From Bifidobacterium crudilactis (GTDB lineage: Bacteria > Actinomycetota > Actinomycetes > Actinomycetales > Bifidobacteriaceae), in NCBI RefSeq assembly GCF_000738005.1, contig NZ_JHAL01000001.1:183108-247107 (forward strand): a stretch of DNA of 64,000 nt. The letters run 5' to 3'. The position numbers and the translations under genes are program-made. Every line of letters starts with the position of its first letter. Positions within the stretch are counted from its first letter, which is position 1. A model generated the notes under the pieces. The model worked only from the letters and a program-made list of their open reading frames with translations, made no database searches and was not told the DNA's origin. Shown here in pieces: positions 20,356 through 32,638 of this stretch.

Positions 20356-20382
20356 TACTGTTAGTGAATCTTGGAGGACCAC

Positions 20383-21168
20383 GTGTTGTACAGCGAAGAA
20401 CGAGGTGACGGCACGCCGCTGCTGCTGATTCATGGTTTCGGTGTGGACCATCGGATTCTCGCATCACTGAGCTCAATGATTGACGACCTGGGTGGTTGGA
20501 GGCAGATATTCATCGACCTGCCCGGCCATGGCAAAAGCCCTGCCGAAGATGTCAACAGCTCACAGGATGTCGTTGACGCGGTCGAGAGCTGGATTCGTGG
20601 GCATCTGGGAGGCGAGTCCTTCGCGGTGCTCGGCAATTCCTTCGGCGGCATGGTCGCACGTTGCGTCGCCCATGATATGCGTGAGCAGGTCCTGGGCCTT
20701 GCAACCCTCGCGGGGGTCTTCGTCAATGACCACGATCAACGGTCGCTGCCCAGGACAACTGTTCTGCACGAGGACCATGAACTCATCGCGTCACTTGGCG
20801 CCATGGCCGAGGACTACACGCAGATGGCCGTCGTGCAGAATGCGGAGCATGCCGCGGCATTCGAGAAATATGTGCTTCCGGGCCTGAAATCCTCCGACCG
20901 GGAGGCTTTGAAGCGTATATCTGCGCATTACTCGCTGGACCAGGAGCCCGAGGACGCGCATCCCGAGCCCTTCGCGCGACCCAGTCTGTTCATCACAGGA
21001 CGACAGGACCAGGTGGTGGGATACACCGATGCGTGGAATCGCATCGAGCATTATCCGCGAGGCACATACACCGTGCTCGATGCCGCAGGGCACAATGTGC
21101 ATCTTGAACAGTCAACGGTCACCGAAGCGCTGGTGCGGGAGTGGCTCAGGAGGATGCGGGAAGACTGA
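20383..21168 (+). CDS. Alpha/beta hydrolase
   Basis: Cytoplasmic hydrolase of 261 residues. The frame opens at a TTG (20371), but GGAGGACC at 20373 is a ribosome site and points to the GTG start at 20383. Seen: LLLIHGFGVDHR (oxyanion hole), nucleophile elbow GNSFGGMV, a FITGRQDQVVGY acid region and AAGHNVHLEQ with the catalytic His. The pattern resembles hydrolases that act on small esters or C-C bonds (MhpC/BioH-like). The substrate is unknown. It converges with the MFS gene, 23 bases apart. Confidence 0.8.
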   Translation: MLYSEERGDGTPLLLIHGFGVDHRILASLSSMIDDLGGWRQIFIDLPGHGKSPAEDVNSSQDVVDAVESWIRGHLGGESFAVLGNSFGGMVARCVAHDMREQVLGLATLAGVFVNDHDQRSLPRTTVLHEDHELIASLGAMAEDYTQMAVVQNAEHAAAFEKYVLPGLKSSDREALKRISAHYSLDQEPEDAHPEPFARPSLFITGRQDQVVGYTDAWNRIEHYPRGTYTVLDAAGHNVHLEQSTVTEALVREWLRRMRED

Positions 21169-21191
21169 ACGACCCTGCATCCTCGGGAAGC

Positions 21192-22856
21192 TCAGACCTG
21201 TTTCTTGATCGGATCGGGATCGGGGATTTCCTCCGGTGTATAGTTGGGCAGTCTGCCTGCGGGAATGATGGCGACACCGCTCAGGGCGGCCATTATCAGG
21301 AGACCGGTTTTCAGAGCGGAAAGACGTGCTTGTTCATTCAGCGACACTGCCGCGTCGACCTGCTCAGGGGTAGCGGTCGTCGTAGCAAGCACTTCTTTGA
21401 GGTGATCGTTCGACACGAAGTTGGTGTTGTCCAGATCGACCTGTGAAGTCAGGTCCTTCGGTAGGTCGACATTGCTGCCGTCGCTCAGGGCGAGTGTGAC
21501 GTTGCCTGCGAGCAGACCGACCATCAGTGCTCCGGCGAGTGCCGTACCGACTGCCGAGGCCAGATTCTGCGTCGTGCCTCTGATGGAACCGACATCGCCG
21601 GCCAGTTCTTTCGGTGCCGAAGTGACCAGAACGTTGAAAACCAGAGTGACCAGGGAACCCTGTCCAACGCCGAAGATGAACAGTCCCAGAATGGTGGGGA
21701 AGGTCTCCCAGTTATTGTTCACCACATATGCCAACCAGAGCAGCGCAAAGGTGGTGAGTCCGAAGGAGAAGACGCCGATCTGACGTGGAGTGAAGCGCTT
21801 GTACACGCGAACCACCAGCATGGCGGTGAAGAATACGGTCAGGTTGAAGGGCAGCATCGCCATCGATGTGCTGAATGCGCTTCTGCCCTGGACTATCTGG
21901 ATGTAGAGCGGAATGGTGAAATTCAGTGCAGCTTCCATGGCGACCACGATGAACATGGCGAATACCGCTGAACGCTCACGTGAGGACTTCAGAATGCCGA
22001 GTTCGACAAGCGGCTCCTTGCCTTCGGCGGAACGTTTGCGTGTCCACATGGTGAATAGCTGGACGAGGATGATGCCGACCACGATGAGCAGTGGTGCGGG
22101 TGACATGCCGAGGATGTTGAACGGCGCGGAAGACGTGGCTCGTAGCAGACCCCATCCATTGAGATTATTCACGCCCAAGGTGAGCAGGACGATGCCCAAA
22201 CCTATGAGCGGGGCCCCGATGACATCTATGCTTATCGTCTTGTCGCCGTGATCGCCGCGCAAACGGAAGCTGAATATGAATACGGTGACGGCGAGCACAA
22301 GCACGATACCGAATACGGGACGCCAACCGACGAGTGTGGCGAGAGTGCCTCCGATGAGGAATGCGCTCACACCGGAGAGCGCTCTGGCCGAGCCGAGCGA
22401 ACCGATTGCCGTTGCCTGCTGGGCGCCATGATAGTTCTCGGCGATCAACGCGACCAGGGAGGGGACGATGATCGCGGCCGAAGCACCGGCAAGCGCCTGG
22501 GCGACGATGACCCACACCACTGATTGCGCCAATACCATGCAGAGCGCGGAAATGGCGAAAATGCCGACTACGACTCGGAATATATGCACCCAGCCGATGC
22601 GCTGCCCGAGTTTGGCGCCGACCATGACCAGGGCGGCCACGACTAGACCGTATGTCACGATAGCTGTTGAGACGCTGGTTGGCGGAACGCCGAAATCTTC
22701 GACCATGCCTCCCATGGACACGGGCAAAGCCGCAACGTTGAAGGACATCAGCACCTGTGCGAGGAATAATCCGACCATCGGCACCCAGGAGTTGCGGGTC
22801 ACCGCCGCGAATTCCGTCGTCACCGGTGCCTTATCTGTTGTTCGTGGTTCCGTCAT
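21192..22856 (-). CDS. DHA2-family MFS drug exporter (14-helix type)
   Basis: 554-residue membrane protein with about 14 hydrophobic helices, long for MFS and typical of EmrB/QacA exporters. It carries the motif-A region GAKLGQRIGWVHIFR and a motif-C-like GSLGSARALSGVSAFLIGG. A soluble extracytoplasmic loop of about 60 residues precedes the last helix (DGSNVDLPKDLTSQVDLDNTNF onward). It starts 51 bases after the glutaminase stop on the same strand, so the two are likely co-transcribed. Substrates of the family are lipophilic cations and other toxic organics. Confidence 0.8.
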   Translation of the reverse strand: MTEPRTTDKAPVTTEFAAVTRNSWVPMVGLFLAQVLMSFNVAALPVSMGGMVEDFGVPPTSVSTAIVTYGLVVAALVMVGAKLGQRIGWVHIFRVVVGIFAISALCMVLAQSVVWVIVAQALAGASAAIIVPSLVALIAENYHGAQQATAIGSLGSARALSGVSAFLIGGTLATLVGWRPVFGIVLVLAVTVFIFSFRLRGDHGDKTISIDVIGAPLIGLGIVLLTLGVNNLNGWGLLRATSSAPFNILGMSPAPLLIVVGIILVQLFTMWTRKRSAEGKEPLVELGILKSSRERSAVFAMFIVVAMEAALNFTIPLYIQIVQGRSAFSTSMAMLPFNLTVFFTAMLVVRVYKRFTPRQIGVFSFGLTTFALLWLAYVVNNNWETFPTILGLFIFGVGQGSLVTLVFNVLVTSAPKELAGDVGSIRGTTQNLASAVGTALAGALMVGLLAGNVTLALSDGSNVDLPKDLTSQVDLDNTNFVSNDHLKEVLATTTATPEQVDAAVSLNEQARLSALKTGLLIMAALSGVAIIPAGRLPNYTPEEIPDPDPIKKQV

Positions 22857-22907
22857 TGTTCCTCCAGAGGATTGTTCAGAGAACGTTCATCATTGCGGCA
22901 TCGTTCG

Positions 22908-23975
22908 CTACTCATCGTTATCCGTGTCTTTCTTTCCTGAATCTGATGATGTGGTCTCGGATGCAGGCGTACCGGGTGAAGAAGCATCGTGTGCAGAGGC
23001 AAAGAGATTCAACCCCAGCGCACGTGAAAGATACGCCGCCGCGATTTGGCCTCGTACGCTGTTGCCCGCCTCATCCAAACGAGGTGCATAGCTTCCCACG
23101 GCCCCTTTTCCGGGGGCGACGGTGAGCAGGCCGCCGGCGACGCCTGATTTTCCGGGAAGTCCTATTTCCACCAGCCATTCCCCTGAGCGTTCGTACAATC
23201 CGGCCGTGGCCATAACGGCCAGGGCGTCGCGTGCGACCTGTTCCCCCACGACACGTTTGCCGGTAACCGGATTCACTCCGCCATCCGCAAGCGTCGCGCC
23301 CATAACCGAGAGATCATGGGCGTCAACCAGCAGAGAGCACTGGCGTGTGTAGACGTCAACCGTTTCGTCACTGTCTCCCTTGAGACACCCATAGCCGCTG
23401 AGCAGTCTGGCGATACCTTGGTTGCGTTGGTTCGTGAGCGCCTCCGAGCGGTAAACGCCATCATCCAAGGTGAGCGGCCGGCCCGCGAATGCGGAAAGCC
23501 CCGACTGAATGAACTCCCACCGTTCTGCGCCGCTGTTTCCGGGGACTCGGGAGGTGGTGGCAATGGCACCGGCATTGACCATCGGATTCAATGGATGCCC
23601 GCCGTTGAGTTCAAGGGCCATAACCGAGTTGAAGGGCAGCCCCGTCGCGTTGACGCCAATGGCGGTCAGCACCTCTTCATGGCCAAGCGCCTCGCACACC
23701 AGGGCATATACAAAAACCTTCGAGATGGATTGAATCGAGAAGACATGACCATACGAGCCGAGTTGGTGGGTGCGGCCGTTCGTCTCGGTGATCGCTATGC
23801 CGAAGACCTCAGGGTCTGCATCCGCCAGTGCGGGGATATAGTCCGCCACCTTGCCCTCATGATGCTGCAACGCACGCTCACATGCGCGTCCAAGAACGCC
23901 ATCCACCACCGAAACGGCCGGCAGCCTCCCCGTGGCGGCGTATTGTCGAATATCCGAAACATCAAGATCCCACAT
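22908..23975 (-). CDS. glsA: Glutaminase A
   Basis: Hydrolyses glutamine to glutamate and ammonia in the cytoplasm. It has 355 residues, about 45 longer than the usual 310. The serine-dependent glutaminase motif S-x-x-K is Ser83-Ile-Ser-Lys86 in FSIQSISKVF, and MVNAGAIATTS and GKSGVAGGL are diagnostic. The last 35 residues are Ser/Asp/Lys-rich and look disordered. Ammonia release by glutaminase is a known acid-stress defence in gut and fermentative bacteria. It is the first gene before a DHA2 exporter; the stop-to-start gap is 51 bases. Confidence 0.9.
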   Translation of the reverse strand: MWDLDVSDIRQYAATGRLPAVSVVDGVLGRACERALQHHEGKVADYIPALADADPEVFGIAITETNGRTHQLGSYGHVFSIQSISKVFVYALVCEALGHEEVLTAIGVNATGLPFNSVMALELNGGHPLNPMVNAGAIATTSRVPGNSGAERWEFIQSGLSAFAGRPLTLDDGVYRSEALTNQRNQGIARLLSGYGCLKGDSDETVDVYTRQCSLLVDAHDLSVMGATLADGGVNPVTGKRVVGEQVARDALAVMATAGLYERSGEWLVEIGLPGKSGVAGGLLTVAPGKGAVGSYAPRLDEAGNSVRGQIAAAYLSRALGLNLFASAHDASSPGTPASETTSSDSGKKDTDNDE

Positions 23976-24547
23976 CGGAACACCTTCCCCCTACAGTGCA
24001 CACAACAACAGCATAGTTGATTCATTGAGCCTGAAACGTCTTGGTTTCACTGGGTATGGCGTGGCTCGCACGTGTGCAGGAAGATGAGGCCTTGAGCCTG
24101 GACGGTTTTCCGCACGCTGCCGGAAGGCGTTATACGGGAGAGGGGGATGGCCCCGGCGAAGAGAAAGAGTGGGGAAACCGGGGCCTTGAATTCAGTATGA
24201 ACGACCTATCTCAATGGAGCGATGGGGAAAGCATGGAAGCAGCTGACAATCCTGTGACCAATCGGTGAAGCGGGCCCCAGCGGCGCGATGGACGTCGCAA
24301 GGCGATGTGGGCGAGGTCACAGTGAATTACGGTCATATGGTGTAGATGGTCATTGTGAAACGAGACGGCAATAGACATAATGAATGATTGCAATCGTCGA
24401 ATGCCGACCACCGTCCTTGGTATCCGAAGGGACAGGCGCATCGCCATTACCAAGGCATTACAAGGCATTGCCAGGTATTGCCAGGCGCGTTGAGTATGGG
24501 TGCGGAACAGGGATTGCCGGTGCACAGGGCACATATGAGGAGGAACA
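23976..24547. other. 572-base intergenic region between glsA and the acetolactate synthase
   Basis: It should hold the divergent promoters of glsA (-) and the TPP enzyme (+). I see no convincing gene: the open frames here lack family motifs and ribosome sites. The only structure noted is the short tandem repeat at 24445-24485. Confidence 0.5.
24445..24485 (+). repeat. Four tandem copies of a 10-11 base unit
   Basis: Copies read CATTACCAAGG, CATTACAAGG, CATTGCCAGG and TATTGCCAGG, about 60 bases before the acetolactate synthase start. The repeat could be polymerase slippage or a leader element. Confidence 0.6.
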
Positions 24548-26296
24548 TTGGAAGACGCGAGAACCACGGAACTCGATCCGGCGACCGAAGCGAAAGCCGA
24601 GGTGAATGCGGAACCGGCGCTTTCCGAGGTTGCGGAGCGGCGCAGGAACACCGCCGACCTCATCGTCGAATGTCTGGTGAACGAAGGAGTCGAGGTTATC
24701 TTCGGCATTCCAGGCGAGGAGAACATCACGCTGATGGAGGCTATCGAGCGGGACGGACGCATTCGTTTCGTGCTGACCCGCCACGAACAGGGCGCGGGTT
24801 TCATGGCCTCGACCTATGCCTATCTCACCGGAAAACCCGGTGTGTGCCTGTCCACGCTTGGGCCGGGTGCGCTCAATCTGATGCTTCCCGTGGCACAGGC
24901 GAATGCCAGCACCACACCTCTTGTGGCAATATGCGCGCAGGGCTCATTGAATCGTCTGTATAAGGAATCCCATCAGATCGTCGATCTCGAGTCGCTGTTC
25001 AGACCGATAACGCAATGGACGTCAATGGTGATGGACCCGAATTCCTCACCTGAGATGGTGCGGAAGGCCTTTTCGATGGCCCAACATGCACGGCCCGGCG
25101 CAACCTGCCTGATCATCCCCGAAGACGTGGCGGAAAAACCCGTCGATGTGGATGCGCATCCTCTCGCCCTGCCAAGACCCTTGCACACCATTCCCACGGA
25201 CGGCATCATTCAAGAGGCCGTGGAACTGATACGCAATGCGAAGCACCCCATCATTCTCGCGGGCAACGGCATCTCGCGCTCGCATGCGGAACAACAGCTG
25301 ATGATGTTCGCCGAGCAGTGCAATGTTCCGGTCGCCACAACCTTCGAGGGCAAGGGCGTATTCCCCGACGACCATCCGAACGCGCTGGGCGTGGTCGGTT
25401 TCATGCACCACGACTATGAGAACTTTGCATTCGATACGGCCGATCTGATTCTGGCATTGGGATTCTCCATCCAGCAGTTCGACCCGAAGAAAATCAATCC
25501 GCATAACGACAAGACGATTATCCACATCAACACCTTCGTGGAAGATTCCGATGCGCACTACTCCACGGCGTTGAACATCAGGGCGGATATAGGGGCCACG
25601 CTGTATGCGCTCACCACCAAACTGCGTGAGCAGAATGTCAGCTTCGACACCAGCCAGCCGAAAATCCGAGAGCTGCTGCATGCCGAAACGATTTCCTGCG
25701 CCAACGATCCGGCATTTCCGATGAAACCGCAGCGAGTGGTGTACGACACTCGACGTGCGGTGAGAAGAGACTGGACGACACTGGTCGATACCGGTGCGTT
25801 GAAGATGTGGATGGCCCGCCTGTACCCCACGTATCAGACCGACACCTGTCTCATCGACAACTCCTTGTCCACCATGGGCTGGACGCTGCCGGGAGCTGTC
25901 GGCGTCTCGATTGCGCAGCCATCCAAACCCGTGCTTGCAGTGATGGGCGACGGCAGTTTCATGATGAATATTCAGGAGATTGAAACGGCGGTCAGGTGCG
26001 GCTGCCGTATGGTCGTTCTCGTGTGGGTCGACGAATCATACGGCCTGATCAAATGGAAGATGGACATTCACGCCGGAAAACACGAGTACGTCGATTTCAA
26101 CAACCCCGATGTCGTCGCGCTCGCGGCCAGTTTCGGCGCCAAAGGTCACGAAATCACCAGTGCGGATGAACTGTATCCGGTGCTGCGCCGGGCCATGTGC
26201 AGCGGAAGCGGCGTCGACATCATCGCCTGCCCCGTGGATTACCGCGAGAATATGCGCCTGATCAGTCAACTGGGTGAACTCGACTATACCGACTGA
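24548..26296 (+). CDS. alsS: Acetolactate synthase, catabolic AlsS-like
   Basis: Thiamine-diphosphate enzyme of 582 residues that would join two pyruvates into 2-acetolactate. It starts with TTG at 24548 behind a strong AGGAGG site. Catalytic Glu80 lies in TRHEQGAGFMA, and the cofactor motif starts at Gly467 (GDGSFMMNIQEIETAV) and ends in VWVDESYG. No regulatory IlvN-type subunit or acetolactate decarboxylase gene is adjacent, which fits the stand-alone catabolic type; a different pyruvate-using TPP enzyme is possible. The first 34 residues are a charged extension not typical of the family. Role suggested: pyruvate overflow and neutral-product formation. Confidence 0.7.
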   Translation: MEDARTTELDPATEAKAEVNAEPALSEVAERRRNTADLIVECLVNEGVEVIFGIPGEENITLMEAIERDGRIRFVLTRHEQGAGFMASTYAYLTGKPGVCLSTLGPGALNLMLPVAQANASTTPLVAICAQGSLNRLYKESHQIVDLESLFRPITQWTSMVMDPNSSPEMVRKAFSMAQHARPGATCLIIPEDVAEKPVDVDAHPLALPRPLHTIPTDGIIQEAVELIRNAKHPIILAGNGISRSHAEQQLMMFAEQCNVPVATTFEGKGVFPDDHPNALGVVGFMHHDYENFAFDTADLILALGFSIQQFDPKKINPHNDKTIIHINTFVEDSDAHYSTALNIRADIGATLYALTTKLREQNVSFDTSQPKIRELLHAETISCANDPAFPMKPQRVVYDTRRAVRRDWTTLVDTGALKMWMARLYPTYQTDTCLIDNSLSTMGWTLPGAVGVSIAQPSKPVLAVMGDGSFMMNIQEIETAVRCGCRMVVLVWVDESYGLIKWKMDIHAGKHEYVDFNNPDVVALAASFGAKGHEITSADELYPVLRRAMCSGSGVDIIACPVDYRENMRLISQLGELDYTD

Positions 26297-26335
26297 GCCT
26301 GCAGCGAGACATGACCGTCGGTAGGGGAGCTGCGG

Positions 26336-27463
26336 TCACATGCCGGGGTGCCGGAGCTTCCCGGAAATATAGTCCCGGCATATGGCCACGATGCGTTCGG
26401 CGGCATGCCCGTCCCCATAGGGGTTTACCGCAGTAGACATCGCCCGGTACTCCCGCTGATCGTTCAGCAGCTCGGTCATGGCGTTGCGCACCGCTTCGGT
26501 TTCGGTCCCGATTACCTTGAGGGTTCCTGCCGTGACGCCTTCGGGGCGTTCGGTTGAATCACGCAGCACCAGCACGGGCTTGTTCAATGACGGGGCCTCT
26601 TCCTGCACTCCGCCGGAGTCCGTCATGATGAAGTAGCTCTGCGAGGCCAGACCGTGAAAATCGGTGACATCCAAGGGTTCTATCAGGTGAACGCCCTCGA
26701 CGTCGTCAAAGATCTCGTGTGCCACCTGTTGCACGCGTGGACTCAGATGCACCGGATATATGACATCAAGGTCCGGTGTGGCCAGGACGACATTTCTGAT
26801 GGCCGTAAAGGTATTCCTCATGGCTTGACCCTGGTTCTCGCGTCGATGCATGGTCAGCAGAATGAATTTGTGCCCTTGAGGAATCGCTTCGAGAACGGGA
26901 TGATGATAATCGGCATGAACCGTGTATTTCAAAGCGTCTATGGCCGTGTTCCCCGTGATGAAAATCCGTGATTCGGGATGGTGTTCCTGCAGGAGGTTGT
27001 CTTTGCTCAGCTGCGTGGGCGCAAAATACAGATCGGCGATGTCGTCGGTGAGCATGCGGTTCATTTCCTCGGGATACGGGGAATACTTATCCCAGGTGCG
27101 CAGGCCCGCTTCGACATGACCAACGGGAATCTGATGATAGAAGGCGCTGAGACCGGCCGCCATGGTTGTGGTGGTGTCACCGTGGACCAGAACCAGGTCT
27201 GGCCGATGCTCGTCCAGAACCGGATCGAGCCCGAGTATGACTTTGCTGGTGATTTGGGAAAGCGTCTGCTGCCTGGCCATCACCTTCAGGTCGGCGTCCG
27301 GGTGAATGTCGAAGATATCCAGAACCTGCTGCAGCATCTCCTTGTGCTGACCGGTCAGCACGACGATGGGTGTGGTGTCCGGGTTGGCATCGATGGCTTT
27401 GATAACCGGAGCCATCTTGATTGCTTCGGGCCGTGTGCCGAAGATGGTCATTATTTTCTGCAT
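26336..27463 (-). CDS. wecB: UDP-N-acetylglucosamine 2-epimerase (non-hydrolysing)
   Basis: Interconverts UDP-GlcNAc and UDP-ManNAc in the cytoplasm. It has 375 residues, standard length. Motifs in order: GTRPEAIKMAPV (residues 9-20), VHGDTTTTMAAGL, GHVEAGLRTWDKYSPYPEEMNR, the UDP-binding MTDSGGVQEEAP and RDSTERPEGV. Its ATG lies directly after the stop of the GH8 gene (one base between), so it is translationally coupled as the last gene of the exopolysaccharide operon. UDP-ManNAc supplied here is the natural donor for a poly-ManNAc synthase. Confidence 0.93.
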   Translation of the reverse strand: MQKIMTIFGTRPEAIKMAPVIKAIDANPDTTPIVVLTGQHKEMLQQVLDIFDIHPDADLKVMARQQTLSQITSKVILGLDPVLDEHRPDLVLVHGDTTTTMAAGLSAFYHQIPVGHVEAGLRTWDKYSPYPEEMNRMLTDDIADLYFAPTQLSKDNLLQEHHPESRIFITGNTAIDALKYTVHADYHHPVLEAIPQGHKFILLTMHRRENQGQAMRNTFTAIRNVVLATPDLDVIYPVHLSPRVQQVAHEIFDDVEGVHLIEPLDVTDFHGLASQSYFIMTDSGGVQEEAPSLNKPVLVLRDSTERPEGVTAGTLKVIGTETEAVRNAMTELLNDQREYRAMSTAVNPYGDGHAAERIVAICRDYISGKLRHPGM

Positions 27464-27464
27464 C

Positions 27465-28601
27465 CTAATGGTTATCTCCCATCACTGCCATGACGGTTAG
27501 CGTGGCATCGTAGTAATTCGTGGTCGTCAGTGTTTCCGTAAGCATGCTCTGCCGGTATGCTTTCAGGCGGCTGTACCCTTGAAAGCGTTCGAGGTTCGCC
27601 GCGAAGGTCAGGGGAGCCGTGAAGCTGTTCGAAGTGTAGTCGTTGAGACGGTTGCCTGCCAGCGAATACCCCGCGGTTATGGTCTCCTGAGACTCGAAGA
27701 ACTTCAGCAGCTTCGAAACGACCTTTCCTGCACGCGAATCGTCGCTCGAAGCCAGCATCATCGGTGTGCGGCATGCGTTCGAGGAATAATCGCCATCGAA
27801 CTTCGTCGCGACGGTTTTCCCTTTGACCGGTCGGGCGCCGGTGTCCGTCACCCAAGCGAAATCAGGGAGAAGGCCGGTCTGCTGTTGATCGCTCAGATTC
27901 ACCATGCGATCCAGCATGGCATTGTTCACCGTCGACCATCGAGCGTCGCCCGATAAGGTGTGGAACGCTTCAAAAAAAGTCGGCATGACATCGGAGGTGC
28001 GCATCAGATTGTAGTATTCGGACTGCTTGTCGGCCCAGTTGCCGACGGTGAGCGTTTGAGTCTCTGTGTTGTATTCATACGCGAGTATGTCGTCAATCAG
28101 TTTGCGTTCGATTGACTGGTAATAGCTTCTGCGGCCTGGCCAAGACGAACTGGCCAGATGAAGGCTGTATGCAATGTAGAGATCGCCATCGGTCGCGCTG
28201 TTGGCATGGCTTTTCCAGGTCTGATTGTTCTTCTCGAGCTTCCACTGCATCAGGTAGGTCTCGGTGTCCCGATGCTCTCCGACGACATCACGGTGTTCGA
28301 GATAGAAGTTCAGCAGGTCATCGAAGTTCTGTTGTGTGGCCCAGCCTTTGCCGCCTGCAATGGCGGTGAGATACATGCCGTAACCCTGCCCTTCGGAGAG
28401 CGCCACGGGATTGGATCTGTCGTTGCTGGTGTTGATGAAAGCCTGATTCCCGCTCTCCTGCATCACGTATTCCTGTTGCCATTGCCTGTACAGTTTGTGC
28501 TGCATGCCTGTGGTGCTCCCAACCCGCACGAATATCATGGTGGCGATATAGGCGATGGTGATTACGGCGGCCAAGGTCCACATGAGTGATAGGCGCTTCA
28601 T
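27465..28601 (-). CDS. Membrane-anchored glycoside hydrolase family 8
   Basis: 378 residues. An uncleaved N-terminal helix (about residues 7-26) anchors a GH8 catalytic domain outside the cell. The family motif VALSEGQGYGMYL holds the proposed acid Glu70, and SATDGDLYIAYSL holds Asp138. GH8 enzymes (BcsZ, PssZ) accompany BcsA-like synthases and trim the nascent beta-1,4-glycan. Here it lies between the GT2 synthase and the epimerase. Substrate could be poly-beta-1,4-ManNAc, cellulose or another beta-glycan; the epimerase neighbour favours the first (inference). AGGGGG ribosome site. Confidence 0.88.
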   Translation of the reverse strand: MKRLSLMWTLAAVITIAYIATMIFVRVGSTTGMQHKLYRQWQQEYVMQESGNQAFINTSNDRSNPVALSEGQGYGMYLTAIAGGKGWATQQNFDDLLNFYLEHRDVVGEHRDTETYLMQWKLEKNNQTWKSHANSATDGDLYIAYSLHLASSSWPGRRSYYQSIERKLIDDILAYEYNTETQTLTVGNWADKQSEYYNLMRTSDVMPTFFEAFHTLSGDARWSTVNNAMLDRMVNLSDQQQTGLLPDFAWVTDTGARPVKGKTVATKFDGDYSSNACRTPMMLASSDDSRAGKVVSKLLKFFESQETITAGYSLAGNRLNDYTSNSFTAPLTFAANLERFQGYSRLKAYRQSMLTETLTTTNYYDATLTVMAVMGDNH

Positions 28602-28610
28602 CCAAACCCC

Positions 28611-29924
28611 CTAGTTGTTGAATCTTTTGGTTTTCACCCAGACACTGCCATCCCTGTGGAACAGGGCGTCCAGGCCCACGGAAATCACGGCATGAAGTGA
28701 GACGATGATGAATAATTGCGAATACGTGAAATACGATGCCAAGGCTATCCATATCTGATTGGTGGTGGCCTGCCCGAATTGCGTGGACATCGCTATCGAT
28801 ATCTGCAGCAGGTACAGGATGATCATCAGCAACCAATTGATCAGCAGCACTTGCATGATCGCCGTGTTGTTCTCACCAAAGGTGAATGGGATTGATAATG
28901 CGGGATTGAACGCTCTGGCTATGAGAAAAGCGATGTTGGAGAGGAAGATGATATTCGACAGCACTATTGCCGCGTCGAACCAGAAGAATGTTGCCGAGTA
29001 ATACATCACCTCAAGTTTGACCCGCCAATTGCTGCGATTGAAGAGATGCTTGAAGTTGTGGATAACCACCTGGTAATTGCCCTTCGCCCAGCGCAGGCGT
29101 TGAAAATAGTAATCGTGCAGGCGTTCTGGCTCCTGCTGGAAGGCTTCGGAGTTATATGCCAGAGCAATCAGCTTGCCGCTTTGCATGATTTTGAAGGAGA
29201 TGTCCGTATCTTCGGTAAGTGCTCCGTCGCTCCATCCACCAATCGATTTGGCGAAATCGCGATTGATGATGAAATTTGTTCCGGGGATGCGTCCGATTTT
29301 GAACATATGCCATATCGCGCAGTGCTGTATCCTCTGGGTGACGACGATTTCCTGATTGATGCATTTCGTCAGAAAATTCTGTTGCGCGTTTCTGGTCTTG
29401 TTTCTGCCGAACACAGCCATGTATCGTTCCGGATTCTCGATGGCTTTTCTGACCAGAAAGTACAGGGCGTTCTTCTCGGGCATCGCATCGGCGTCATACA
29501 CGCCGATGTATTCTCCCTGGGCCATCGGCAGTGCGTCATTCAAGACGCCGGCTTTGCCTCCTGTCCCCACCCTCTCGATGATTTGGACGTCTCGATTACG
29601 GTATTCGGGCAGGTTCGCTACCTGCCTCATCGCCTCCGCGGTCCGATCGTTGCAGTTGTCCGCGAATAGCAACAGCTCGACCTGTTCGGGAGGATAGTTG
29701 AGTTCCAGAATCGCTCGAACCGTCTGGGCGATAACTATTTCTTCGTTATGCGCCGGGACGACGATCGTCACTTTGGGGTAGGAAGGCAGGGCTGTGACGA
29801 AAACCAGTTCCTTGCTCTGCTGCAACCAGAAATGAACGGCTCCTGCAAGGGTGGTCATGGATACCAGCAAGGATATCCATATAGTGATTAACGCGAAAAT
29901 CATGAAAGCTTCTGATATCACCAT
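28611..29924 (-). CDS. Family 2 processive glycosyltransferase (BcsA/PssC/PgaC-like polysaccharide synthase)
   Basis: 437-residue integral membrane synthase. One helix at residues 7-34 precedes the GT-A domain. TIVVPAHNEE (about 53) binds the nucleotide, the metal-binding DAD is 144-146, the catalytic base lies in TEDTD (237-241), and QRLRW (275-279) marks processive synthases. Four or so helices follow, forming an export channel. There is no PilZ domain, so control must come from other subunits. It is coupled to GH8 and WecB, and preceded by a 49-residue membrane peptide, a GGDEF-like protein and a membrane protein. Product likely a beta-linked homopolymer. Confidence 0.9.
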   Translation of the reverse strand: MVISEAFMIFALITIWISLLVSMTTLAGAVHFWLQQSKELVFVTALPSYPKVTIVVPAHNEEIVIAQTVRAILELNYPPEQVELLLFADNCNDRTAEAMRQVANLPEYRNRDVQIIERVGTGGKAGVLNDALPMAQGEYIGVYDADAMPEKNALYFLVRKAIENPERYMAVFGRNKTRNAQQNFLTKCINQEIVVTQRIQHCAIWHMFKIGRIPGTNFIINRDFAKSIGGWSDGALTEDTDISFKIMQSGKLIALAYNSEAFQQEPERLHDYYFQRLRWAKGNYQVVIHNFKHLFNRSNWRVKLEVMYYSATFFWFDAAIVLSNIIFLSNIAFLIARAFNPALSIPFTFGENNTAIMQVLLINWLLMIILYLLQISIAMSTQFGQATTNQIWIALASYFTYSQLFIIVSLHAVISVGLDALFHRDGSVWVKTKRFNN

Positions 29925-29942
29925 ACTGTTACCTTGTCGTCG

Positions 29943-30092
29943 TCATTCTGTGGTCTGATCGAGCTTCTGCTGTTGCAGCATCGATCGTTCAACCCGAAAA
30001 TAGATAATCCATTGGCACGCGAAAAAAATCACCATCGCTACTGAGAACAGCGCGGTAATCAGCACGGCGACCCACCAGAATACTACAATCAT
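29943..30092 (-). CDS. 49-residue membrane peptide in the exopolysaccharide operon
   Basis: Small gene not obvious at usual length cut-offs. ATG 30092 shares its first base with the stop of the upstream gene (TGATG junction) and follows GGAG; the stop is 18 bases before the GT2 start. It encodes one strongly hydrophobic helix (about residues 3-30, VVFWWVAVLITALFSVAMV) and a short charged tail (VERSMLQQQKLDQTTE). Synthase operons of the Bcs, Pga and Pss kinds commonly carry such small subunits (for example PgaD- or PssD-like), so it is probably an accessory or regulatory subunit of the synthase. No specific homologue is recognised. Confidence 0.75.
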   Translation of the reverse strand: MIVVFWWVAVLITALFSVAMVIFFACQWIIYFRVERSMLQQQKLDQTTE

Positions 30093-30571
30093 CAGGAGCG
30101 CTCTCCTTGCAGATACTCGACCACTAGATCCGTTTCCATCTGACGACGCAGCTGGTTGAGGGTCTCGTCGAGAGTCGGATATTGCGTGACGTTGGCATCA
30201 TCGATTACCACCTTTCCCCATTTGAACTGGGGGACGGCTTCCAGGCAGCGCACCTGATTCAGCTGTTCCTTGGTGTATGAGTTCCGCTTCTCGTATGTCT
30301 CGGTGGAGAGCTGATGCGAAATGATCAGAAAGGTTCCGTGGCCGAGATAGTACAGTGATTCGGAAGGCAGACGACTGTCCTTCAGCACTCTGGCCATCTG
30401 CCTGAGTGCTTCGTCGTAATCAGCGGGATGGAATTGTTTGAACTGAGTGTTATGCGCCCAGTGAATCGCGGTAACGGTGAACGAAAGCTCCAGATCGATG
30501 TCATCCTTAATGAAACGGGTGGCTTTGAGGTACATCTTGCTGGCGTTGTGTTCCGTTTGCAGTTTTGTCAC
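30092..30571 (-). CDS. Degenerate GGDEF-like cytoplasmic protein of the exopolysaccharide operon
   Basis: 159 residues, start GTG 30571, overlapping the previous stop by four bases (GTGA). Residues 28-85 follow the GGDEF core pattern (FTVTAIHWAHNTQFKQF in place of the strand plus metal site, then DEALRQMARVLKDSR, then YYLGHGTFLII where active enzymes read R-x-GGDEF). The signature is GHGTF, so cyclase activity is not expected. An RxxD inhibitory site is not present in its usual place. The Listeria pss system and Pseudomonas PelD use degenerate GGDEF domains as c-di-GMP receptors; this one may be a receptor or just a scaffold. The assignment is by motif pattern only. Confidence 0.6.
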   Translation of the reverse strand: MTKLQTEHNASKMYLKATRFIKDDIDLELSFTVTAIHWAHNTQFKQFHPADYDEALRQMARVLKDSRLPSESLYYLGHGTFLIISHQLSTETYEKRNSYTKEQLNQVRCLEAVPQFKWGKVVIDDANVTQYPTLDETLNQLRRQMETDLVVEYLQGERS

Positions 30572-30954
30572 TTGGTCGTAGTGCTGGGTATATCTCTCGA
30601 TGTCATGCCGATTGACATTGATCCAGCCGAAGCGGATGACAATGAACCACCGAGCGCCATGAGACCGGCGCTAATCGGAAAGACCGCGAGAAGCACGATT
30701 TTTGACGCGAGCGATACGGGAACGTCTCCCAGTAGCAGAATGGCTCCACCGATAGTGGTGAGCAGCAGAATCACCCACGTCGACACGACATTGGGAAGCA
30801 ATGCGCCCGTAGCCAGACCGATGATGAGCAGAACGACTGTGGCAAGAGATATCTCGGGCGTGAGGAGTTCGACGTAATACAGGGCTATCGTAATCGCTGA
30901 AAGCACGATAAGCAGCGTCACGATGCCGGATGTGATGATATGGCTTTTTTTCAA
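30568..30954 (-). CDS. Four-helix membrane protein, first gene of the exopolysaccharide operon
   Basis: 128 residues, start TTG 30954 behind GAGGAG. Hydrophobic segments at about 8-30, 37-54, 58-78 and 84-105 are followed by a Ser/Thr-rich cytoplasmic tail. The gene overlaps the GGDEF-like gene by four bases. Together the two resemble a single membrane-anchored degenerate GGDEF protein (as in PelD-like receptors) that has been split into two coupled genes. No family is recognised from the helices alone. Confidence 0.6.
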   Translation of the reverse strand: MKKSHIITSGIVTLLIVLSAITIALYYVELLTPEISLATVVLLIIGLATGALLPNVVSTWVILLLTTIGGAILLLGDVPVSLASKIVLLAVFPISAGLMALGGSLSSASAGSMSIGMTSRDIPSTTTK

Positions 30955-31492
30955 AACGGTTTCTCCTCATACGTGTTGTTGCCAATTGCAGGCAGACATG
31001 CCATTGGGGTAGCGGCCACCAACTGGCAAGACCTGGGAACGCGCTGAAGCAGTTGCTCTGCGTGTCAGCGCTGCGGTTGACTGCTAATTGAACTCGGTTC
31101 TGAGACTGAGCATCGTGGACTCGATCTTCCGTGTGAAGCTTCTGCGTGCGATGGATACTGTAGAAGCAGGGATACAGTATCCCGAAAGGATTCGTTCACA
31201 CACCGCCATGGTTCCCGAGGCACAGTTGCTGTCTTGAGAAATCCTGGTGTGCTTGTTGCCATATTGCATAACCAGCTAACAATATTGACCGTGGTGTGCT
31301 TGCATATGCATGTTATCCGCCCAACCGTAACCGTGCATCACGAATAGTATCTGAAACTTGGTTTCTAGATTTATAGTACACCAGCCCGAGACAATTTCGG
31401 TGCTTGGGGTAGTTACTCTCATAACGATATGGGGCATATTTCGAAGTTCTGCAAACGTCACATCCTGGGAAGATTACAGTCGGAGAAACCAT
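30955..31492. other. 538-base intergenic region upstream of the exopolysaccharide operon
   Basis: It should contain the operon promoter. Seen: a 10-base stem (GGATACTGTA at 31153-31162 with 31173-31182), and an 11-base direct repeat TGGTGTGCTTG at 31245-31255 and 31292-31302. Short open frames on the minus strand (about 60 residues) have no recognisable motif or ribosome site. Base composition is more AT-rich than in neighbouring genes. Confidence 0.5.
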
Positions 31493-31523
31493 AAAAAACC
31501 TCGGAAAACTGGTGTTTCCGAGG
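31493..31523 (-). terminator. Rho-independent terminator of the tRNA operon
   Basis: On the minus strand a nine-base stem (31515-31523 with 31499-31507), seven-base loop and a run of six T (31498-31493) follow tRNA-Ala directly. A textbook intrinsic terminator. Confidence 0.88.
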
Positions 31524-31532
31524 GGTGAACTG

Positions 31533-31605
31533 TGGAGCTAGCCGGGTTCGAACCGGCGACCCTCTGCTTGCAAAGCAGATGCGCTACCAGCTGCGCCATA
31601 GCCCC
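31533..31605 (-). tRNA. tRNA-Ala (anticodon TGC)
   Basis: 73-base gene with a seven-base acceptor stem (GGGGCTA with TAGCTCC), D arm, anticodon loop reading CTTTGCAAG (anticodon TGC) and GGTTCGAACC T arm. CCA is not encoded. It lies 24 bases downstream of tRNA-Ile in the same transcript. Confidence 0.96.
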
Positions 31606-31629
31606 GAAATCTGTTGCGAGAATATCGCG

Positions 31630-31703
31630 TGGGCCCGGGAGGACTTGAACCTCCGACCTCATCCTTATCAGGGATGCGCTCTAACCACCTGAGCTACGGG
31701 CCC
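31630..31703 (-). tRNA. tRNA-Ile (anticodon GAT)
   Basis: 74-base gene: acceptor GGGCCCG paired with CGGGCCC, D arm AGCTCAGGTGGTTAGAGC, anticodon loop CTGATAA (GAT) and T arm GGTTCAAGTCC. It is first in a two-tRNA operon with tRNA-Ala. In several actinobacteria this pair sits right after gyrA; here it is 27 kb away. Confidence 0.96.
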
Positions 31704-32014
31704 AACTACGCATGACTTGAAAATCACACGACTGCCCACAATAGTGGCACTTTATTGAGATGTCAATTTGTGTCGCATGAGAGGCTGCAATCGGTGTGTT
31801 GCCTGCCGTGACGAGCTTTGTGGCGTCTGTGGCAGCGCCGAGAGATGTTGCCGGCAATGGCTCTGCCGCGGTACGGCCGGAGCCATCCAGAAAACATCCA
31901 GAAAACACAGGCCGGCGGGGCGCCCGTGAAGCTCGTATACATATACGGCACCTTTGCATACAGTCACGTTGCCGTCATGCAAGCGGTATCCAGTCCTTGC
32001 GGGAAGATATCGGT
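31704..32014. other. 311-base region between tRNA-Ile and the YgjP gene
   Basis: It holds the tRNA promoter on the minus strand (31738-31766). The rest, an open frame continuing upstream of the YgjP start, shows no conserved protein sequence and is taken as leader or non-coding. Confidence 0.5.
31738..31766 (-). promoter_or_regulatory. Promoter of the tRNA-Ile/tRNA-Ala operon
   Basis: Read on the minus strand: TTGACA (31766-31761), a 17-base spacer, and TATTGT (31743-31738). This places the start of transcription about 28 bases before tRNA-Ile. The match to the housekeeping sigma consensus is strong. Confidence 0.8.
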
Positions 32015-32638
32015 ATGTCAAGCGCTCCACGGCCACAAGCCTCATACTCCGGCCGACGTGGGTACAAACAGTCTCAGATGCGGTGGAAAGCCGAGACGAT
32101 TCAGGTCAGCCATGGCAGAGTCAAGAATCTGTACCTGCGAGTCAAGCCGCCGGACGGCCGAATCGAGATTACAGCGCCTCTGAGGATGCCGGATCATGCG
32201 ATTCTTGAGTTCGTTGATTCCCGTGAATCCTGGATACGCAAGACGCGGAACAGGCTTTCCGCCGCCATGAGTTCGGTGCCTCCGGAGGGGAAGCCCGAGT
32301 GGGACGAGGCCGCCGTCGACCGTGCCAAGTCAAGCATCAATGCACGCCTTCCGGAGCTGCTGCAGCGGTGGGTTCCTGTGGTCGGACGTGAACCGTCCTC
32401 GATTTCCTTGAGGCTGATGACCTCGCGCTGGGGTTCCTGCACTCCGGCAACGCGAAGGATTCGCCTCAACGTCGAGCTTGCTCGGCTGGACCCCAGGTTT
32501 CTGGAGTACGTGCTGGTGCATGAGCTGACTCATCTATATGTGCACGGGCATGGTCCGGAATTCCAACGGCGTATGGATATGTATCTTCCGCAGTGGAGAA
32601 TGCTGAGAAAAGAGCTCAATACCCATCTCATCGTGTGA
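32015..32638 (+). CDS. YgjP-type (DUF45, M48-like) metallopeptidase domain protein
   Basis: 207 residues from ATG 32015 (GGGAAG nine bases upstream); the frame is open to 31796 but the extra part is not conserved. The zinc motif HELTH (His169, Glu170, His173) is followed by HGHGPEF, where His179 is the probable third ligand. Upstream MTSRWGSCTPATRRIRLN is the diagnostic YgjP motif. These small cytoplasmic proteins often sit near restriction or housekeeping genes; their substrate is unclear. It is transcribed alone and converges with lacI. Confidence 0.88.
   Translation: MSSAPRPQASYSGRRGYKQSQMRWKAETIQVSHGRVKNLYLRVKPPDGRIEITAPLRMPDHAILEFVDSRESWIRKTRNRLSAAMSSVPPEGKPEWDEAAVDRAKSSINARLPELLQRWVPVVGREPSSISLRLMTSRWGSCTPATRRIRLNVELARLDPRFLEYVLVHELTHLYVHGHGPEFQRRMDMYLPQWRMLRKELNTHLIV

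Follow-up and report, generated by a model that had tools for sequence, protein, structure and literature searches.

A candidate horizontally acquired exopolysaccharide cassette with a frameshifted, GGDEF-derived subunit gene in Bifidobacterium crudilactis

The window analyzed here, a stretch of 64,000 nucleotides of the Bifidobacterium crudilactis genome (GCF_000738005.1, contig NZ_JHAL01000001.1, positions 183,108 to 247,107), carries at 26336–30954 a compact set of genes for a putative exopolysaccharide synthase. The original prediction had described it as a bifidobacterial operon resembling the Listeria Pss system, with its own supply of UDP-N-acetylmannosamine (UDP-ManNAc) and a split, degenerate GGDEF subunit. 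Six open reading frames (ORFs) lie at these coordinates, all on the minus strand. With increasing coordinate, neighbors are separated by 1, 9, and 18 spare bases and then overlap by 1 and 4 bases. The predicted coordinates, spacing, gene order, and WecB and GH8 family assignments were all verified. The same types of gene recur in the same order at dozens of other loci, indicating that the cassette is not a chance arrangement.

Three of the genes encode enzymes. The first, wecB (26336–27463), encodes a non-hydrolyzing UDP-N-acetylglucosamine (UDP-GlcNAc) 2-epimerase of 375 residues, which scores 503 bits with TIGR00236 (cut-off 210) and is the sole match in the genome. The second (27465–28601) encodes a glycoside hydrolase of family 8 (GH8; 378 residues; PF01270, E 8.8e-26, 91 bits against a cut-off of 24) with the motifs SEGQGYGM at residue 69 and ATDGDLYIAYSL at residue 136. 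Its N-terminus is hydrophobic by eye, which suggests a membrane anchor. The best PDB matches by sequence (5xd0, 7cju, and 1v5c) rank above BcsZ-type entries, and the nearest solved relatives are annotated as glucanase or chitosanase. The parallel originally drawn to a GH8 hydrolase of Listeria needs correction: that enzyme, PssZ, is GH8 according to its discoverers but GH126 according to CAZy (PMC7479077, available part), whereas the window hydrolase belongs to PF01270. A Lactobacillus johnsonii study (PMC12188725, available part) was rejected as a GH8 parallel, its "family 8" genes being glycosyltransferases.

The third enzyme (28611–29924, 437 residues) is a processive-type synthase of glycosyltransferase family 2 (GT2), with the motifs DNCND at residue 89, YDADA at 143, TEDTD at 237, and QRLRW at 275. 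Its nearest characterized reference is PssC of Listeria monocytogenes (31.5% identity over the full length of 438 columns, 236 bits), compared with 160 bits for a Priestia GT2, 108 for PgaC, 83 for BcsA, and 27 for NfrB, in agreement with the proposed link to PssC. An uncharacterized Enterococcus faecalis GT2 (34% identity, 258 bits) is, together with PssC, the nearest outside the cassette among the references tested. In E. faecalis (L118, 6001–10196), the PssC-like GT2 (34% to the window) is accompanied, beyond an unannotated gap, by a 286-residue protein with a negligible profile link to the PssE-like family described below. Cassette GT2s and GT2s linked to PssC and BcsB fall into separate groups of the tree; when distant outgroups are included, NfrB and PgaC sit on very long branches, NfrB inside the cassette group, and these placements are not trusted. 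Among NCBIfam models, PgaC/IcaA (TIGR03937) fits the GT2 best, at 141 bits, far below the cut-off of 422. The CelA/BcsA model reaches 85 of 699 bits, and the BcsZ model is likewise far below its cut-off for the cassette. No PilZ domain was found on the cassette GT2 by Pfam search.

Next to the GT2 gene lies an ORF for a membrane peptide of 49 residues (29943–30092), kept at the same spot across carriers. A hydrophobic ORF is present between the GGDEF-like gene and the GT2 gene in 58 of the 60 loci scanned, with lengths of 45–78 residues, mostly 45–62, when the first start codon is taken. As to the two misses, locus L011 has a tblastn match to the window peptide, and L061 is broken. The Lactobacillus sakei and Lactobacillus plantarum plasmid records that we read list no coding sequence at this position, in a gene table that describes itself as incomplete. 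BcsB (PF03170) has no match in the window's genome and is absent from 47 of 50 carrier genomes (present in 3/50). Because of this absence, we infer that the small peptide is the best candidate for the membrane partner of the synthase, although family searches do not link it to PgaD or IcaD. An apparent fusion of the peptide to the GGDEF-like protein in four streptococcal loci (L040, L042, L044, and L047) is an artefact, the frames holding stops and the peptide being a separate ORF.

The two remaining ORFs correspond to the halves of a gene resembling Listeria pssE, an N-terminal membrane domain (30568–30954, 128 residues from a TTG start) assigned by comparison with relatives and a C-terminal domain (30092–30571, 159 residues from a GTG start). 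Neither half, nor the 49-residue peptide, matches any Pfam or NCBIfam-type model above its cut-off. The AlphaFold2 model of the C-terminal domain, with a pLDDT (predicted local distance difference test) of 88.6, bears out the proposed GGDEF fold: all 50 matches listed by Foldseek and all 50 listed by VIA-align are GGDEF-domain proteins. Structures of PelD and PssE are not among the VIA-align matches listed, from which nothing is concluded. In a model of a full-length relative, four predicted N-terminal helices are followed by a stalk that continues the fourth. At the level of sequence the kinship is faint: PF00990 matches only 4 of 50 members at E<=0.1 (best 0.009), and a profile search of the PDB returns the diguanylate cyclase DosC as best natural match, at E 0.5.

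The domain is degenerate, as had been proposed. None of 50 aligned members has the GG[DE]EF signature, so that an active diguanylate cyclase is rejected, and none has an in-register RxxD inhibitory-site (I-site) motif. The position of the first metal-binding aspartate is occupied by histidine in 42/50 members and by aspartate in 3/50. By contrast to these lost motifs, R143, E146, E152, and Y153 are invariant in 50/50 members, W38, H40, and Q46 are near-invariant, and most members share RLPSE. Alignment thus shows that the PssE-like protein no longer has the residues needed to make cyclic di-GMP (c-di-GMP), nor the motif that usually binds it.

The cassette belongs chiefly to lactic acid bacteria. 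When GTDB species genomes were scanned for the GT2, 61 named loci emerged, with 64–83% identity in the best segment; two are in Bifidobacterium metagenome-assembled genomes (MAGs) and the remainder in Lactobacillaceae and Streptococcaceae. Where the contig allows, the common order is the membrane plus GGDEF-like gene, the short peptide, GT2, and GH8, followed by wecB or, in streptococci and a handful of others, preceded by it. Within the genus Bifidobacterium, the GGDEF-like protein occurs in 4 of 27 genomes. A sample of 394 genomes from the class yielded the GT2 at E<=1e-60 once, in the window's own genome; the remaining carriers within the genus evidently fell outside this sample. All six bifidobacterial sequences group together as a clade (support 100/99) in a 53-row GT2 tree, where they sit beside a Ligilactobacillus row (L011; 98/89) within Lactobacillaceae. 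By contrast, rpoB places the host among bifidobacteria: the window's genome shows 98.4% identity with the bifidobacterial genomes G023 and G024, about 89% with those of the two named Bifidobacterium MAGs, and 58–60% with four lactic acid bacteria (828–845 aligned residues). Because the bifidobacterial clade nests inside Lactobacillaceae, the direction of transfer appears to be from lactic acid bacteria; the simplest reading of the sequences is a single such transfer, followed by descent or movement within bifidobacteria. What had been taken for a bifidobacterial system is rather a cassette of lactic acid bacteria found in some bifidobacteria. The PssE-like protein is also found on nine plasmid records, one from L. 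sakei and eight from L. plantarum, all typed as mobilizable. On pKCA54 of L. sakei, the cassette is flanked by transposases of the IS30, IS5, and IS256 families; the L. plantarum plasmid stretch has no wecB before the end of the record.

In the window and in G024, the cassette sits at a shared insertion site beside tRNA-Ala and tRNA-Ile, while G006 and G016 carry it elsewhere. G023 shares flanking genes with the window, but its stretch lacks both the cassette and the neighboring acetolactate-synthase-like gene. The flanking genes of the window and G024 are as saturated at synonymous sites as the cassette, so that the divergence of the cassette does not prove its repeated replacement, and one shared acquisition at this site suffices. 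The region up to the tRNA genes is variable (window 20371–31700; L086 5210–15238; L085 3–16318). The window holds a major facilitator superfamily (MFS) transporter, a glutaminase, the acetolactate-synthase-like gene, and the cassette. G024 holds the acetolactate-synthase-like gene and the cassette, without matches to the transporter or glutaminase, and G023 holds the transporter, the glutaminase, and about 12.7 kb of other genes, including asparaginase-like, permease, and glutamine-synthetase-like ORFs (named by eye). The gene adjoining the tRNAs (window 31796–32638) is 68% identical to its counterpart in G024, compared with 92% for the neighboring LacI regulator.

From these observations we favor, as the moderately probable reading, a horizontally acquired exopolysaccharide cassette in which WecB feeds a PssC-like GT2 assisted by the peptide and GH8, together with a c-di-GMP-independent PssE-like subunit that is frameshifted in this genome. 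WecB would convert UDP-GlcNAc to UDP-ManNAc, as its equivalog-level match implies, and the membrane-embedded GT2 would polymerize the product and extrude the chain through its own membrane part. The chain is probably of beta-linked N-acetylmannosamine (ManNAc), judging from the co-occurrence of WecB and the kinship with PssC. Other synthases have membrane partners, namely the BcsB anchor, PgaD, or IcaD, and the short peptide may fill this role here. Outside the cell, GH8 may trim or release the chain. With its four membrane helices, stalk, and GGDEF-fold domain, the PssE-like protein would be a structural or regulatory subunit, which most likely senses something else than c-di-GMP or acts as a scaffold. 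The frameshift would part its membrane half from its cytoplasmic half in the window's genome while leaving the enzyme genes intact.

The split itself had been read as the design of the subunit, and this does not hold. In a survey of 65 loci (46 with both halves detected, 16 with the GGDEF-like part only, and 3 without the GGDEF-like part), the two halves share one frame in 45 of the 46 loci with both, the window being the exception; the 45 include G024, whose frame is interrupted by a stop codon. When the DNA is aligned with that of five bifidobacterial relatives, the linker differs in length by one base, at 30640–30660. An alternative frame of the window continues the stalk sequence of the relatives, and about the last 27 residues of the 128-residue ORF are out of frame relative to them. 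The two ORFs are thus two halves of what in relatives is one gene, interrupted by a frameshift confined to the window's genome, and a two-gene design of the sensor is rejected. Within the stop/start overlap GTGA (30568–30571), the 159-residue domain might be re-initiated, and we conjecture that both halves could still be made.

Several points weigh against the functional reading above, the first concerning this lesion. PssE is essential for exopolysaccharide in Listeria (PMC4125290, available part), and if the PssE-like protein is likewise essential, the frameshift would silence the operon. In favor of a decaying operon that yields no polymer in this strain is also an independent lesion in the same gene, a nonsense codon in the membrane part in G024, whose cassette occupies the same insertion site. 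We regard decay as somewhat unlikely. GT2, GH8, and WecB are each in one frame without stops in the window's genome and in G024, the small peptide is open in both, and both halves may be translated through the overlap. Neither half evolves clearly faster than in the five other bifidobacterial copies, although the 159-residue half lies, by a narrow margin, furthest from the outgroup (48.4% versus 48.7–54.1%). The lesion would thus be young, an error, or tolerated. Across carriers, lesions were counted in 7 of 52 covered PssE-like loci (two of them near the start, perhaps outside the gene), 4/61 for GT2, 3/62 for GH8, and 2/44 for WecB; the count omits L067 (poor contig) and genes covered by less than 85%, such as the GT2 of L061 and L066. 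The PssE-like gene holds 5 of 14 lesions, where 18% is expected (P 0.10), or 7 of 16 with the two near-start stops (P 0.017), suggestive at most, and a clear excess is rejected.

An assembly or sequencing error in an intact gene is unlikely. One genome of the species was examined, from an assembly without reads, and the remainder of the operon is intact. However, the frameshift zone contains no run of at least four identical bases, and in the near relative G024 this gene is damaged in another way.

The polymer, its donor, and the specificity of GH8 are predictions, and the GT2 has just 31.5% identity to PssC. The PssE-like family, for its part, is weakly linked to Listeria PssE by profile comparison (hhalign probability 27%, 81 columns). 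The nearest GH8 structures, chitosanases and glucanases, would fit a polymer of glucosamine or glucose, and PgaC/IcaA is the best curated model for the GT2. The chain might then be similar to poly-N-acetylglucosamine (PNAG), chitosan, or glucan, with WecB serving a side branch or another pathway. WecB is common in lactic acid bacteria for other uses, and 17 of the 61 loci have no WecB match in the stretch fetched. The other 44 have one; a small number of these matches are incomplete, lie at the end of a contig, or diverge (L011). We consider a polymer other than ManNAc quite unlikely, since the PgaC model scores far below its cut-off and PssC more than doubles the bits of PgaC, and since WecB follows the cassette. 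Within the genus, WecB occurs in exactly the four cassette carriers among 27 genomes, with one match each (chance of this overlap 5.7e-5, computed without regard to relatedness), which upholds its proposed role as partner of the cassette. It is also present in 49 of 50 carrier genomes; only G070 (L063) lacks a match, and there both GT2 and GH8 are frameshifted. The result within the genus is the stronger of the two, because WecB has other uses in lactic acid bacteria.

The occurrence of c-di-GMP enzymes was assessed from 47 of the 61 loci plus four genomes, omitting near-duplicates, short fragments, and L009; 50 carriers were counted, and some of the genomes are MAGs and possibly incomplete. 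The genome search suggested with the original prediction was made with family models and found neither GGDEF nor EAL proteins in the window's genome (PilZ and HD-GYP were not searched there). GGDEF is absent in 36/50 carriers, and EAL matches occur in 13/50 (14/51 when the non-carrier G023 is included). In 11 of the 13 EAL-positive carriers, the distance between an EAL and a GGDEF match is at most about 2 kb, which indicates that c-di-GMP enzymes form a separate unit in most of the carriers that have them. Although c-di-GMP signaling had been described as not established in bifidobacteria, enzymes for it are predicted in the genus, in 2 of 27 genomes here and in bifidobacterial pel loci (PMC7112168, available part). 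In G006, the only same-genus carrier with a GGDEF-EAL protein, this protein (841 residues) lies near a BcsA-like GT2 with a PilZ domain (PF07238, E 6e-10) and a GtrA-type GT2 (L090, 6462–14492), a predicted c-di-GMP-controlled glycan locus in a bifidobacterium; as it lies about 1.2 Mb from the cassette and near this other synthase, a link between it and the cassette is rejected. G023 contains an 881-residue open frame with GGDEF and EAL matches (L091, C7 183000–202000).

Other points speak for c-di-GMP control. A GGDEF protein is present in the remaining 14 of 50 carriers, and c-di-GMP could bind at another site of the PssE-like domain. Five Liquorilactobacillus PssE-like proteins (L027, L030, L032, L033, and L059) carry an RxxD motif shifted by one residue, with RLPD replacing the RLPS found in most other members, and all five genomes hold a GGDEF match, while a sixth, L028, has neither. 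Some members may still bind c-di-GMP, which is only a lead because the five are one group of relatives. An ordinary Listeria-type Pss with the degenerate GGDEF domain as c-di-GMP receptor, which the membrane-plus-GGDEF architecture and the PssC-like GT2 would fit, is nevertheless very improbable, given the window's genome without GGDEF or EAL matches, the lack of an in-register RxxD in every member, the 36 carriers without GGDEF, and the separate location of the G006 enzyme.

The favored cassette works like a Pss-type synthase but is not a Listeria-type Pss operon, because neither BcsB nor an in-register I-site was found. In Listeria (pssA–E; L115, 3026–10185), PssE has 284 residues, and most cassette relatives have about 260–320; both combine a membrane part with a degenerate GGDEF domain, and ManNAc is the likely sugar in common. 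The Pss polymer of Listeria consists of beta-1,4-linked ManNAc, every second residue of which bears galactose (PMC11439720, available part). The cassette lacks BcsB/PssD, as well as PssA and PssB (DUF2334), the latter two by gene content only, their genome-wide presence not having been searched. Unlike Pss, it has the short membrane peptide, GH8, and WecB, and no GGDEF or EAL protein in the genome. "Pss-like operon" is thus apt for the PssC-type GT2 and the PssE-like architecture, and not for the complete gene set.

Other systems share single features. In Escherichia coli, NfrB, which acts with NfrA on the NGR glycan, is proposed to use UDP-ManNAc made by WecB, and genomes without a second copy of wecB have it linked to the synthase gene (PMC8669469, available part); NfrB differs in its low score with the cassette GT2, its MshEN receptor, and its outer membrane partner. 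The gts operon of Lactobacillus acidophilus (GtsA, GtsB, PdeB) likewise pairs a BcsA-like GT2 with a degenerate descendant of a c-di-GMP enzyme, but this descendant has an EAL domain and binds c-di-GMP, the genome encodes a cyclase, and the available parts of the source name no GH8 or WecB (PMC6123363). PNAG synthases (PgaC/IcaA with PgaD/IcaD) likewise have a small membrane partner and provide the best GT2 model, at a score well under its cut-off; the six genes include no deacetylase, and family searches do not connect the peptide with PgaD/IcaD. The Bcs system (BcsA, BcsZ, BcsE, and BcsF) offers a working parallel in its GT2, its GH8, a GGDEF-derived accessory protein (BcsE), and a membrane peptide of about 60 residues (BcsF), yet the CelA and BcsZ models fall far short, BcsB has no match, and the GT2 has no PilZ domain.

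Around the cassette, a terminator-like stem lies 3' of tRNA-Ala on the minus strand (31499–31523), and the cassette begins about 545 bases further on the same strand. Terminator-like sites are not above chance in the region (2 found, 4.7 expected), and neither are promoter sites (5 against 4.6 expected). An Rfam search returned the two tRNAs only.

Taken together, the central idea of the original prediction stands in its GGDEF fold, PssC link, and WecB, and falls in the split design, the bifidobacterial scope, the full Pss operon, and PssZ as GH8. More tentatively, and as a possibility short of an even chance, the cassette may represent a distinct Gram-positive synthase class, in which a membrane microprotein of about 50 residues replaces BcsB and a GGDEF domain has been rebuilt, with conserved residues of its own, as a c-di-GMP-independent subunit that controls a ManNAc polymer where no GGDEF enzyme is found, this subunit being lost or uncoupled in one bifidobacterial branch. 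We recognized no description of the cassette or its polymer in the literature searched, most subscription journals lying outside the search.

The cassette probably makes a surface polymer from ManNAc, judging from sequence, and suggests such a polymer for some bifidobacteria, lactobacilli, Weissella, and streptococci. Since the carriers include several type strains, direct tests of donor, polymer, and ligand are feasible, and the small membrane peptide adds a gene without a listing in two plasmid records. The PssE-like family presents a case of a signaling fold outliving its signal: the GGDEF fold persists, with invariant residues that are new, in genomes that yield no GGDEF enzyme. If the subunit is indeed being uncoupled or lost in one branch of the bifidobacteria, the polymer would become constitutive there.

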